From positions 124,001-188,000 of the forward strand of contig NZ_FNVA01000005.1 in the NCBI RefSeq assembly GCF_900108185.1: 64,000 nucleotides of DNA. Direction: 5' to 3'. The translations under genes and the position numbers were made by a program. Origin of the DNA: Bryocella elongata (GTDB lineage Bacteria > Acidobacteriota > Terriglobia > Terriglobales > Acidobacteriaceae). The notes below the pieces were generated by a model. It was not told the DNA's origin. It was given only the letters and a program-made list of their open reading frames with translations, and did not search any database. This document shows positions 22,285 to 31,197 of this stretch, piece by piece. How positions within the stretch are numbered: position 1 is the stretch's first letter; each line of letters starts with the position of its first letter.

Positions 22285-22572
22285 ATGGAAACCGTCAACA
22301 TCCACGAAGCCAAGACCCATCTTTCGAGGCTGATCGCCAAGGCGGTCAACGGCGAGCCGTTCATCATTGCCAAGGCGGGCAAACCCCTCGTGCAGGTAAG
22401 CGCCATCGCGCCAGTCGAGCCGCCCAAGCGCAAGTTCGGCTTCCTCAAGGGCCAGTTCACAACTCCCGAGAACTTCAAGGACTTTGGCCGTGAAGAGATC
22501 GAAGAGATGTTCTATGGCAACCCCGATAAGTTCTCAGATCGTAAATCTGCGCTGAAAAAGAAACGCAAATGA
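22285..22572 (+). CDS. Phd/YefM-family antitoxin
   Basis: A 95-residue protein with the N-terminal Phd/YefM DNA-binding fold: METVNIHEAKTHLSRLIAKA, VNGEPFIIAKAGKPLVQVSA. The C-terminal half (FKDFGREEIEEMFYGNPDKF) is the likely toxin-wrapping segment. It probably neutralises the PIN protein encoded next and represses the operon. GCGAGG precedes the ATG, with TAAACT at 22262-22267 as a candidate -10. The stop overlaps the toxin ATG by four bases, as usual for such pairs. Confidence 0.92.
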   Translation: METVNIHEAKTHLSRLIAKAVNGEPFIIAKAGKPLVQVSAIAPVEPPKRKFGFLKGQFTTPENFKDFGREEIEEMFYGNPDKFSDRKSALKKKRK

Positions 22573-22961
22573 GCCGTGTTCTTCCAGACACCCACCTCCT
22601 CTTGTGGATAGCAGAGGATTCGATCCGGATGCCCGCAGAGGCGGCGGCAGTGCTGAAGGATGAAGAGAATGAGATCTTCTTCAGCGTTGCGTCCATCTGG
22701 GAAGTCTCCATCAAAGCGGCCCTCAACAAACCGGGTTACCTTGCCGATCCTTCAGCGCTCCGCAGAGGCCTGCTCGGCATTGGCTTTCGGGAACTCCTCA
22801 TCACTAGCGCACATGTCATCGCTGTCGCCAAACTCCCCCATCATCACCGCGACCCCTTCGACCGTCTGCTTGTTGCTCAGGCACGCACCGAAGGCCTCAC
22901 GCTAATGACCACGGACAAGACGCTCGCCCGCTATGGCGCCAGCGTTCGCCGCTTCCGCTAG
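22569..22961 (+). CDS. PIN-domain toxin, VapC type
   Basis: A 130-residue PIN-domain ribonuclease. The acidic site residues are in LPDTHLLLW (Asp), SVASIWEVSIKA (Glu), RDPFDRLLVAQA (Asp) and TTDKTLARYG (Asp). The DTHLLLW...HHHRDPFDR pattern is that of the COG3744 PIN subgroup commonly paired with Phd-type antitoxins. VapC toxins cut tRNA or rRNA in a sequence-specific manner; the target here is unknown. ATGA overlap with the antitoxin gene couples their translation. Confidence 0.93.
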   Translation: MSRVLPDTHLLLWIAEDSIRMPAEAAAVLKDEENEIFFSVASIWEVSIKAALNKPGYLADPSALRRGLLGIGFRELLITSAHVIAVAKLPHHHRDPFDRLLVAQARTEGLTLMTTDKTLARYGASVRRFR

Positions 22962-27531: not shown

Positions 27532-28769
<1,238 letters not shown>

Positions 28770-28773
<4 letters not shown>

Positions 28774-29123
28774 CGACCCCGATGCGCCTTGAGATCGACG
28801 AGGGCACCATGGATCTGTTGGTTTGGAATGTCGCGAACGAAGTGCTCAATGGTTTTGAAGTGATTGATTTCGAGAGCACCATTGGGATATCCAAGGACGA
28901 CTTCAAATCGATTGTTGTCTCTCTCCGTGGCCTTTCCAAAGAAGCAAGGATAATGCTCGATTTGAAAGAGGTTCGTCTCTTTCGCAATGCTCTCGCCGTC
29001 GTTCTCGAGGAACTTGGAATCGAAGAGTTCGATACGAGAACTGGCCATTCTTTCGAGGAAGGCAATGCAATACTCGGCCAGCTGAACCTTTTCATCGACA
29101 CCCAAGTGGAGGGGCGGGCCTAA
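28770..29123 (+). CDS. unknown small protein encoded between trpB and trpA
   Basis: A 117-residue acidic protein, coupled to trpB by an ATGA overlap and ending immediately before the trpA ATG (TAA then ATG without a spacer). Sequence features: [40 protein letters not shown], and a helix [20 protein letters not shown]. There is no signal peptide and I recognise no domain. trpB and trpA normally adjoin because their products form one complex, so an intervening gene is unusual. Its codon choice looks less GC-rich than in trpB and in the flanks of trpA, suggesting acquisition. The small size and mixed alpha/beta pattern resemble immunity-protein families, but that is only an impression. Confidence 0.7.
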
Positions 29124-30314
29124 ATGCCTATCACGTTCTCCAACAAACCCGGCCTCGTCATCTACCTCACCGCCGGCGATCCCGACCTCGCCACCACGCG
29201 CGACATGGCCATCGCCGCCATCGACAACGGCGCCGACGTCATCGAGCTCGGCGTGCCCTTCAGCGACCCCCTCGCCGATGGCCCTGTGATCCAACGCGCG
29301 TCCGAGCGTGCCGTCGCACGAGGCACACGCCTCACCGACGTCCTCGGCATCTGCAAAGAGATCCGCGCCGCCCGTCCCAACGCCGGCCTCATCCTCTTCA
29401 GCTATCTCAATCCTGTATTGCAGTTCGCTAAAGTCCAGCAGAAAATCGCTGGGGAAATCGACGCCAGAGCCGAAGGAGAAGCTAAGTACGTCCGGGTCAT
29501 TAGTCCTTCAGGCATGTATGCGCACGTAAAACTTCGGATCGAGCCGAATGCCGAAGGTATGGGGCTGGACTTCAGTGTTGCTCCTGATTTTGCCACAGGA
29601 TTTGATGCACTCAGCTCTGATCCGCGCATCAGCCCGATAAGCGCCGAATATATTCCAGAGATCGAAGCTGCTGTACGAGACGCCGCTCGCGATGGCATGA
29701 CTGCTGGACACGAGAGGGTCGATATCAGAGTCGTGTTGACGGGTGGTTCAAGTCACGAGATTGAGTCGAGTCCAACCGCTTTTCGTGCTGCGGCCTCGAT
29801 GGCGTTCACGGAGGCAGCTCAAAAGGCCAATCCTGTAGTCCGCATAGGCATGGACGCATTCGCGAAGGCCGCGAAAGAAGCCGGAGCCGATGGCGTGCTA
29901 CTCACTGACATGATCGTCGAGGAAGCCGCCGACTATCTCCGCGTGATGCACGAGCACGGCCTCGCGCCCGTCTTCCTCGCCGCGCCCACCTCGCCCGACG
30001 CTCGCCTCAAAGCCATCGCCGAAAACTCCGGGGGCTTCGTCTACGCCATCTCCCGCACCGGCATCACGGGCACGCAGCAGGAGCTCGCCGTCGGGGCCAA
30101 GGAGTTAGTCCAGCGCATCAAGCAATTCACCACACTGCCCGTCGCGCTCGGCTTCGGCGTCTCCACGCCTGAGCACGTGAAGACCGTAGGCGAGTTCGCC
30201 GACGCAGCCGTCATCGGCTCGGCCATCGTCGCGCTCATCGAGAAGACGCTCGCAGCCGAAGCTCCTGCGGCAGTCGGAGCATTCGTCGCCAGTCTAAGAG
30301 GAGGCGTCGCGTGA
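29124..30314 (+). CDS. trpA: tryptophan synthase alpha chain with an inserted EF-G domain-IV-like module
   Basis: A 396-residue protein where the family norm is about 260. Residues 1-98 and 239-396 are ordinary TrpA: IELGVPFSDPLADGPVIQRA carries the catalytic Glu41 and Asp52; GADGVLLTDMIVEEA, GGFVYAISRTGITG (Tyr) and GFGVSTPEHV follow. Residues 99-238 are not TrpA. They match domain IV of elongation factor G: GMYAHVKLRIEPNAEGMG, EYIPEIEAAVRDAARDGM, SSHEIESSPTAF and AAASMAFTEAAQKANPV. Removing exactly 140 codons yields SYLNPVVRIGMDAFAKAAKE, a normal TrpA sequence. The insert follows the strand that ends near the alpha-beta subunit interface of the E. coli enzyme, before helix 3 (inference from alignment by eye). 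GTGA overlap couples it to the next gene. Confidence 0.93.
   Translation: MPITFSNKPGLVIYLTAGDPDLATTRDMAIAAIDNGADVIELGVPFSDPLADGPVIQRASERAVARGTRLTDVLGICKEIRAARPNAGLILFSYLNPVLQFAKVQQKIAGEIDARAEGEAKYVRVISPSGMYAHVKLRIEPNAEGMGLDFSVAPDFATGFDALSSDPRISPISAEYIPEIEAAVRDAARDGMTAGHERVDIRVVLTGGSSHEIESSPTAFRAAASMAFTEAAQKANPVVRIGMDAFAKAAKEAGADGVLLTDMIVEEAADYLRVMHEHGLAPVFLAAPTSPDARLKAIAENSGGFVYAISRTGITGTQQELAVGAKELVQRIKQFTTLPVALGFGVSTPEHVKTVGEFADAAVIGSAIVALIEKTLAAEAPAAVGAFVASLRGGVA
29418..29837 (+). other. 420-bp in-frame insertion in trpA, bounded by 10-bp direct repeats
   Basis: CAATCCTGTA occurs at 29408-29417 and again at 29828-29837, exactly 420 bp apart, a multiple of three. The enclosed DNA is open in the trpA frame and encodes an EF-G domain-IV-like fold. 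Its codons look less GC-rich than the flanking trpA (for example caaaaggccaatcctgta). The repeat could be a target duplication, a recombination microhomology, or convergence, because EF-G domain IV itself normally ends in ANPV. Confidence 0.85.
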
Positions 30315-30751
30315 GCTTCGATGGGCTGGGACAAACGGTTCCGGGACTCGAGACCCTCTGGCAGTGGTTCGGCTATTGGCCATCCTTTCATGATGCCGAG
30401 GTCACGGAGCTTTGTCTTAAGAGGGAAGTCGAGTCGGAGGTGCGGGTTCACGCATTCGAGATGACGAGCGAAGTTACATCGTCCGGTCACTATCGAACGG
30501 TGAAGCACGCGACGGTGATCTTTAAACTTGAGGATGTTACGGGTTCGGAATTGAACGGCTTCAATCACCAGAATGTGCTCGCGGGCCTCGATGTTGAGGT
30601 GGCAAGCGACGGCGTGAAGCTCATGCTGGAACACTGTTACGGACTCAACGGCTTCATCTCGGCAAAGCGCATGCGCGTAGCAATTGAACCCGGAATTCCG
30701 CCGGGAAGCGTCTACGCCAGGAGCCAGGCTCAAGGAGATTCGTCCGCATGA
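30311..30751 (+). CDS. Imm50-like small protein
   Basis: A 146-residue protein with LWQWFGYWPSFHDAEVTELC near the N-terminus; the W-P-SFHDAEV motif is typical of the Imm50 immunity-protein family and its housekeeping-like relatives. The remainder is beta-rich (KHATVIFKLEDVTGSELNGF, SDGVKLMLEHCYGLNG). Imm50-type proteins protect against polymorphic toxins, but no toxin gene is nearby. GTG 30311 overlaps the trpA stop (GTGA), so it is translated with the trp operon. It is the second non-canonical small gene in this operon; function in tryptophan synthesis is not expected. Confidence 0.7.
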   Translation: MSFDGLGQTVPGLETLWQWFGYWPSFHDAEVTELCLKREVESEVRVHAFEMTSEVTSSGHYRTVKHATVIFKLEDVTGSELNGFNHQNVLAGLDVEVASDGVKLMLEHCYGLNGFISAKRMRVAIEPGIPPGSVYARSQAQGDSSA

Positions 30752-30855
30752 ACACTGCGCGAAACTTCTATCATCGACCCACAGAGACAACTTTCGCGCG
30801 TCGCAGGGCGCGCCATCACATCGGGAGCCGCGAAGGCTCCGAGGCAGGGGACGGC

Positions 30856-31197
30856 ATGGAGATCGCAGACTGGCGTAACAAGATCGATGAACTGGACGAG
30901 CAGATCGTGGCCCTGCTCTGCGAACGAGCCGCTGCCGCCATCGAGATCGGCAAGCTCAAGGCACAGGCCGCATCGCCCGTCTACGAGCCCAAGCGCGAAC
31001 AGGTCGTCTATGACCGCGCCCGCGCCAAGGCCGCCAGCCGCCAGCCCGAGTCGCTCTCCGGCACGCAGATCCAGGACATCTATGAACGCATCATGGACGT
31101 CATGCGTTCGCTGCAGAAGCCTGCGGATACAGCCCAGGCCGGCGAAGACAAGCGGCACCCGCAGCAGCCTTACATTCCCCGGCAGAACCAACGCTAG
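30856..31197 (+). CDS. aroQ: chorismate mutase, AroQ class
   Basis: A 113-residue all-helical chorismate mutase: WRNKIDELDEQIVALLCERA, AAAIEIGKLKA, PVYEPKREQVV with the active-site Arg, Lys and Glu of the AroQ fold, then a charged tail. It converts chorismate to prephenate for Phe and Tyr. I choose ATG 30856 because AGGGGA lies just upstream and the fold starts there. The frame is open from ATG 30748, which overlaps the Imm50-like stop as ATGA and would add 36 non-conserved basic residues. A GGAGCC/GGCTCC hairpin lies in that segment. It is followed by DAHP synthase, an old arrangement for feedback control by complex formation. Confidence 0.88.
   Translation: MEIADWRNKIDELDEQIVALLCERAAAAIEIGKLKAQAASPVYEPKREQVVYDRARAKAASRQPESLSGTQIQDIYERIMDVMRSLQKPADTAQAGEDKRHPQQPYIPRQNQR

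Follow-up and report, generated by a model that had tools for sequence, protein, structure and literature searches.

Enzymes with inserted domains, in which the host domain has become discontinuous, form a general kind; old proteins often carry inserted domains, and the event itself is rarely seen. EF-G (elongation factor G) uses in the ribosome the first tip loop, QTGGSG, of its domain IV (PF03764). For the tryptophan synthase alpha chain TrpA (PF00290, TIGR00262), PMC8187860 gives Glu49 and Asp60 as catalytic residues, and Asn104 and Phe107 as residues of the alpha/beta interface. Here we analysed a 64,000-nucleotide stretch of the Bryocella elongata genome (GCF_900108185.1, contig NZ_FNVA01000005.1, positions 124,001 to 188,000; the window), whose trpA gene carries an EF-G domain IV in frame. 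The product resembles other TrpAs in having both halves, the catalytic Glu and Asp, a place near trpB in the operon and a predicted barrel. It differs from them by 140 extra residues between the halves, the site being uninterrupted in all 40 other trpA loci examined. As in other enzyme domain insertions, an autonomous domain occupies a surface loop of a different fold, but here the junction repeat and the foreign composition are still visible. No description of a TrpA with an EF-G or other inserted domain was found in the open-access literature, which fits the statement of the sequence-only reading, an earlier annotation made from the letters of the window, that no such case was described. We favour a recent capture of the domain, with a working TrpA and a tolerated passenger at the partner interface as its most likely state (probability roughly 0.6).

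TrpA with a nested EF-G domain IV

The trpA gene is organized as follows:

29124..30314, forward strand: trpA, tryptophan synthase alpha chain with inserted domain, 396 residues (Trp_syntA 2e-77; TIGR00262 253.6 bits, cut-off 102.35)
29124..29417, forward strand: TrpA N-terminal part, residues 1-98, with Glu41 and Asp52 (up to 93% identity to congeners over 99 columns)
29418..29837, forward strand: in-frame inserted unit of 420 bp, residues 99-238, EF-G domain IV
29838..30314, forward strand: TrpA C-terminal part, residues 239-396 (up to 82% identity to congeners)

The sequence-only reading had proposed a 396-residue trpA product with a nested EF-G domain IV, open in frame, and both Pfam and NCBIfam agreed with it. 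In hmmscan searches of the whole protein, the Trp_syntA match (PF00290, 260.1 bits, cut-off 27) was split into two stretches, between which EFG_IV was found at 8.2e-20 (71.2 bits, cut-off 24); the isolated insert matched EFG_IV at 3.6e-21. Whole-EF-G NCBIfam models remained far under their cut-offs (at most 67.9 bits against 583), as expected because the insert is one domain only, and the Pfam scan of the protein revealed no further EF-G domain, the GTPase domain included. Five uninterrupted TrpAs of relatives served as controls: each matched Trp_syntA in a single stretch, and none matched EFG_IV at E<=1. Domain IV of the genome's own EF-G, as positive control, gave EFG_IV at 5.8e-47. A phmmer search against solved chains returned TrpA on both flanks and, in the middle, EF-G residues around 485-600. 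Clear EF-G homology spans residues ~112 to 239, and residues 99-111 align weakly to EF-G. The barrel of ~260 residues is broken here at residues 99-238, and the presence of a complete nested EF-G domain IV is confirmed.

In contrast to EF-G domain IV, the insert stands without the GTPase or other EF-G domains, has a 13-residue extra loop and retains little of the first tip loop (QTGGSG). The second tip loop (GSYHDVDS) is largely kept, with its histidine and the residues around it (GS.H). The insert retains 20 of the 44 columns invariant across 46 EF-G/EF-G2 rows, compared with 29 to 41 in four GTPase-less relatives (L063, a full EF-G interrupted by masked letters and labelled truncated in the tree, was excluded from these counts and from later alignments). 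Structure prediction suggests that the fold core of domain IV is kept, so as to give an EF-G domain IV fold, and that TrpA forms a split barrel around it; the full-length TrpA model should be taken as a guide only. The alignment used for it (A2) contained 3 of 35 TrpA rows and 15 of 50 EF-G-type rows, with ~10 EF-G residues under TrpA columns; few TrpA rows were kept because the EF-G rows fall on the insert only in that case. The insert alone was modelled with 19 of 50 EF-G-type rows (A4). A mixed alignment (A1), in which the EF-G rows were misplaced, was not used for modelling.

Empty sites, junctions and foreign composition

The 40 uninterrupted loci comprise, among others, those of 21 of 27 congeners, of G038 from another family of the order, of Granulicella sp. 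L60 (Acidobacteriaceae; TrpA 71% identical over the C-terminal part) and of G062 and G080, included for carrying a relative of a 117-residue gene described below. In the other six congeners, no TrpA match was obtained for G004, G008, G020, G021 and G024, and G012 has a fragment at a contig end. G323 has a complete uninterrupted site and a second trpA piece that starts at a contig end near the junction and is unreadable there. No second fusion of TrpA with the insert was detected in 28 genomes of the genus (E<=1e-78), nor in 398 of the family and 396 of the phylum (E<=1e-60, up to 4 candidates scored per genome); these sets overlap, those above genus level are samples, and a very diverged fusion could fall short of the cut-offs. 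The insert was present in this genome alone among those searched. An older insertion, with a domain that diverged fast inside trpA and was lost in other lineages, would agree with the long branch of the insert, and the flanking repeat would permit clean loss. It is nevertheless very unlikely, given that the insert is missing in every one of the 21 congeners whose trpA is readable and that its composition is not adjusted to that of the host.

Each junction bears one copy of a direct repeat:

29408..29417, forward strand: left copy of the 10-bp direct repeat CAATCCTGTA, within NPV codons
29828..29837, forward strand: right copy of the 10-bp direct repeat CAATCCTGTA, within NPV codons

Because of this word, the two TrpA matches share Asn-Pro-Val, and the 420-bp distance between its copies results in a single frame. 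This spacing equals the unit delimited by the sequence-only reading (29418-29837, residues 99-238). The word was found nowhere else in the window, and two copies occurred in none of 100 shuffles. Domain IV ends in A-[KNS]-P-V-L in the canonical EF-Gs of the family, and TrpAs read N-P-[VI] at the site, so that the right-junction word could be shared by guest and host, as would suit a join guided by microhomology. Alternatively, the repeat could stem from a target-site duplication. No inverted repeat joining both ends of the unit was found at the settings used, and the unit consists of domain IV from ~residue 112 to the right-hand repeat, which leaves no room for a transposase; this fits the earlier claim that the module was not a simple transposon.

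The inserted stretch has a GC content of 54.5% and a third-position GC (GC3) of 51.4%, compared with GC3 values of 83.8% and 80.9% in the flanking parts of trpA and 84.0% in trpB. Equally low GC was observed in 1.3% of the equal-length stretches of the window. As the insert is known from one genome's assembly, an assembly or contamination artefact has to be considered. It is barely credible, because the insert is only 41% identical (blastp) to the genome's own EF-G and the trpA site lies ~153 kb inside a 492-kb contig; moreover, both ends are in frame, the assembly holds no second copy of the insert, and no close source was found in order or phylum genomes, phages, plasmids, named genome contigs or IMG/VR contigs.

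The genome's canonical EF-G is encoded elsewhere (723-residue frame), and the insert, judged from its sequence, is too diverged to derive from it. By blastp, the canonical EF-Gs of the family share ~41-47% identity with the insert, and EF-G2 shares 27-31%. A possible donor type is represented by a group of EF-G-like proteins:

EF-G-like proteins without a GTPase domain, ~280-380 residues, sporadic in the family: L095:1234-2085; L062:3736-4866; L064:3782-4717; L051:1156-2097

Their identity to the insert is 37-45%, and the two that were scanned (L062 and L095) match Pfam domains III, IV and the C-terminus of EF-G. They share with the insert EF-G C-terminal parts without a GTPase domain, but they stand alone; the insert is not grouped with them in the tree, which cannot place it at all. 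No obvious toxin was seen by eye in the lists of open reading frames (ORFs) around their genes, where no profile search was made. No description of an EF-G without GTPase in Acidobacteria was found in the open-access literature.

The host enzyme and its partner interface

The interrupted gene is the sole trpA match of the genome and adjoins the sole trpB match:

27532..28773, forward strand: trpB, tryptophan synthase beta chain (TIGR00263 630 bits; only trpB match in the genome)

Glu41 and Asp52, which had been read as catalytic residues kept in TrpA, sit in the ELGVPFSDPLADGP motif, aligned with solved TrpA. The junction of the insert aligns with residues 104-107 of Salmonella TrpA, a stretch that includes the Asn104 and Phe107 interface residues named in PMC8187860, and the claim that the insert lies in a loop facing the beta subunit was thus upheld. 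TrpA matches all 96 columns that are conserved in 35 or more of the 36 relatives, and TrpB conforms at 244/244 columns from 29 relatives; single relatives put to the same test deviate at 0 to 19 columns for TrpA and 0 to 27 for TrpB. No stop, frameshift or loss of a conserved column that would denote decay was found in TrpA or TrpB; a very young insertion would leave no such trace yet.

These data bear on whether TrpA is damaged, with an alpha/beta complex that no longer forms or channels and a gene heading for decay. The junction is aligned with the Asn104-Phe107 interface loop, and the only trpA copy is affected, which leaves no compensation by duplication. We regard such damage as unlikely in view of the intact TrpA and TrpB frames and conserved columns, although decay would not show yet after a very recent insertion.

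Under the capture that we favour, DNA coding for a single, entire EF-G domain IV and derived from a diverged EF-G relative of lower GC would have entered trpA by illegitimate recombination. The word CAATCCTGTA, whose Asn-Pro-Val codons fit the end of domain IV and were present in trpA, would have served as the right-hand microhomology, and the frame would have been preserved at both junctions. TrpA would then fold as a split barrel, with two flexible linkers holding domain IV in the beta3-alpha3 loop, on the face that meets TrpB. At present the domain would be a tolerated passenger, which may weaken or retune the contact with TrpB; the sequence-only reading had suggested that indole channelling or complex formation could be altered.

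Several points weigh against this capture. Given its place at the beta interface, the insert might equally have damaged the complex. Six other perfect direct repeats of 10-11 bp occur within the same 2.3 kb, so that the length of the repeat proves nothing and its exact placement at the junctions is what is telling. Low GC3 may reflect a low-GC donor and does not show age. Both structure models lean to EF-G and TrpA folds because their alignments held such rows. The donor was not found: the search covered 28 genomes of the genus, and in 298 genomes of the order the top matches by E-value, among the matches listed, were ordinary EF-Gs of the family, headed by those of G124 and G208 (49-51% identity by the search tool). 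In 376 phylum genomes at E<=1e-23 only the EF-G of a congener was recovered, and phages and plasmids gave at most 40.5% identity to the insert (11 of 11 and 20 of 247 matches listed). None of 61 pattern matches in named genome contigs and none of 11 in IMG/VR contigs encodes a relative of the insert, in scans sensitive to close relatives only. A tree of 52 domain IV rows cannot place the insert, whose branch exceeds 3.5 changes per site with the bootstrap not settled. Lastly, the two TrpA halves resemble different congeners, the N-terminal half at 93% (L006, L011, L012) and the C-terminal half at 82% (L004). Compared with L006, L011, L012, L015 and L020, the C-terminal half falls 0.076-0.089 under the value predicted from the N-terminal half, the prediction being drawn from 210 congener pairs (residual standard deviation 0.042); compared with others, it is on the line. 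Other recombination or some relaxation in trpA may be involved.

As an observation in its own right, the different closest congeners of the two halves hint at recombination within trpA besides the insertion.

Small genes at the trp operon junctions

Besides the insert, two low-GC genes occupy trp operon junctions and flank trpA:

28770..29123, forward strand: 117-residue gene between trpB and trpA, overlapping the trpB end (GC 50%)
30311..30751, forward strand: Imm50-family gene between trpA and chorismate mutase, overlapping the trpA end (PF15594 9.4e-8, 32.6 bits, cut-off 27.1; GC 56%)
30748..31197, forward strand: chorismate mutase, the next gene (CM_2 9e-21)

Both families recur in other metabolic settings, and extra DNA recurs at the trpB-trpA junction:

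117-residue family as orphans in metabolic gene clusters: window 28770-29123; L107, L109, L108, L110, L112 (three times between trpB and trpA, window included)
Imm50-family genes in amino-acid operons: window 30311-30751; L024:432-866; L116:1501-1923
trpB-trpA junctions with extra DNA: L010, L014, L016, L018, L020, L025, L030, L031

Matches to the 117-residue protein were found in 7 of 200 genomes, its own included. The relatives in G062 and G080 lie between trpB and trpA; others lie between genes reading as dihydropyrimidine dehydrogenase and hydantoinase, upstream of a gene reading as a pyruvate dehydrogenase subunit, and in another setting (L111). One adjoins an RHS-repeat protein (PF05593, 25.2 bits, cut-off 22), and on account of this single case the family is a candidate immunity family, whose members here are possibly orphan immunity genes. 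In G012, too, trpA is followed by an Imm50 relative. Imm50 matches were obtained in 7 of 200 genomes, own included; of the six others, that of G089 lies in the apparent his operon and the rest elsewhere. Imm50 has been tied to polymorphic toxins (PMC3482391). No paper on orphan immunity genes in housekeeping operons was found in the open-access literature.

These neighbours bear on a selected, working module that would give TrpA a new role, be it binding of a translation partner, tuning of alpha/beta coupling or acting as decoy for a toxin directed at EF-G. Two candidate orphan immunity genes in the same operon, the insertion at the interface loop, the predicted fold core and the kept tip histidine with its surroundings (GS.H) speak for it. 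We consider it distinctly unlikely, as the module is present in one genome only and keeps 20 of the 44 invariant columns, against 29 to 41 in the GTPase-less relatives, with the QTGGSG loop largely lost. We know of no toxin aimed at EF-G. With regard to a decoy, neither 'EF-G' nor 'elongation factor' appears in the first 300,000 characters of PMC3482391. Recruitment of domain IV for some new role is conceivable but lacks support. Its full form would be a long shot: a two-function TrpA whose degenerate domain IV, from its place at the alpha/beta interface, would link tryptophan synthesis with translation or act as decoy for an EF-G toxin, beside two possible immunity genes.

The gap between trpB and trpA measured 200-580 bp in 8 of the 36 loci with a usable distance, which were not chosen for it. 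This set excludes the three loci bearing the 117-residue gene (G000, G062 and G080), a duplicate of G000, G035, whose value was implausible, and G323, which gave none. Six of the eight gaps are filled by a gene-like ORF; three of the products were recognized as SnoaL-like, 23S rRNA-intervening-sequence and acetyltransferase proteins, and the other three had no Pfam match. In the remaining two no convincing gene was seen. Given these filled gaps, small coding pieces gather at the junction, an apparent insertion hotspot, and the nested domain may result from the same collecting process, landing inside a gene. Elsewhere in the window, a Phd/YefM antitoxin and PIN-domain toxin pair (Pfam) was noticed in a low-GC stretch (22285-22961).

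Preferring the recent capture, we see here a domain insertion apparently caught early, with a whole foreign domain in frame, the recombination word at both ends and the only copy of a central enzyme as host. The tolerance of a new domain by a barrel enzyme and by its subunit interface becomes testable, with many uninterrupted relatives to compare. The trp operon of Acidobacteriaceae appears, in addition, as a site where small foreign genes, possible immunity genes among them, gather repeatedly.
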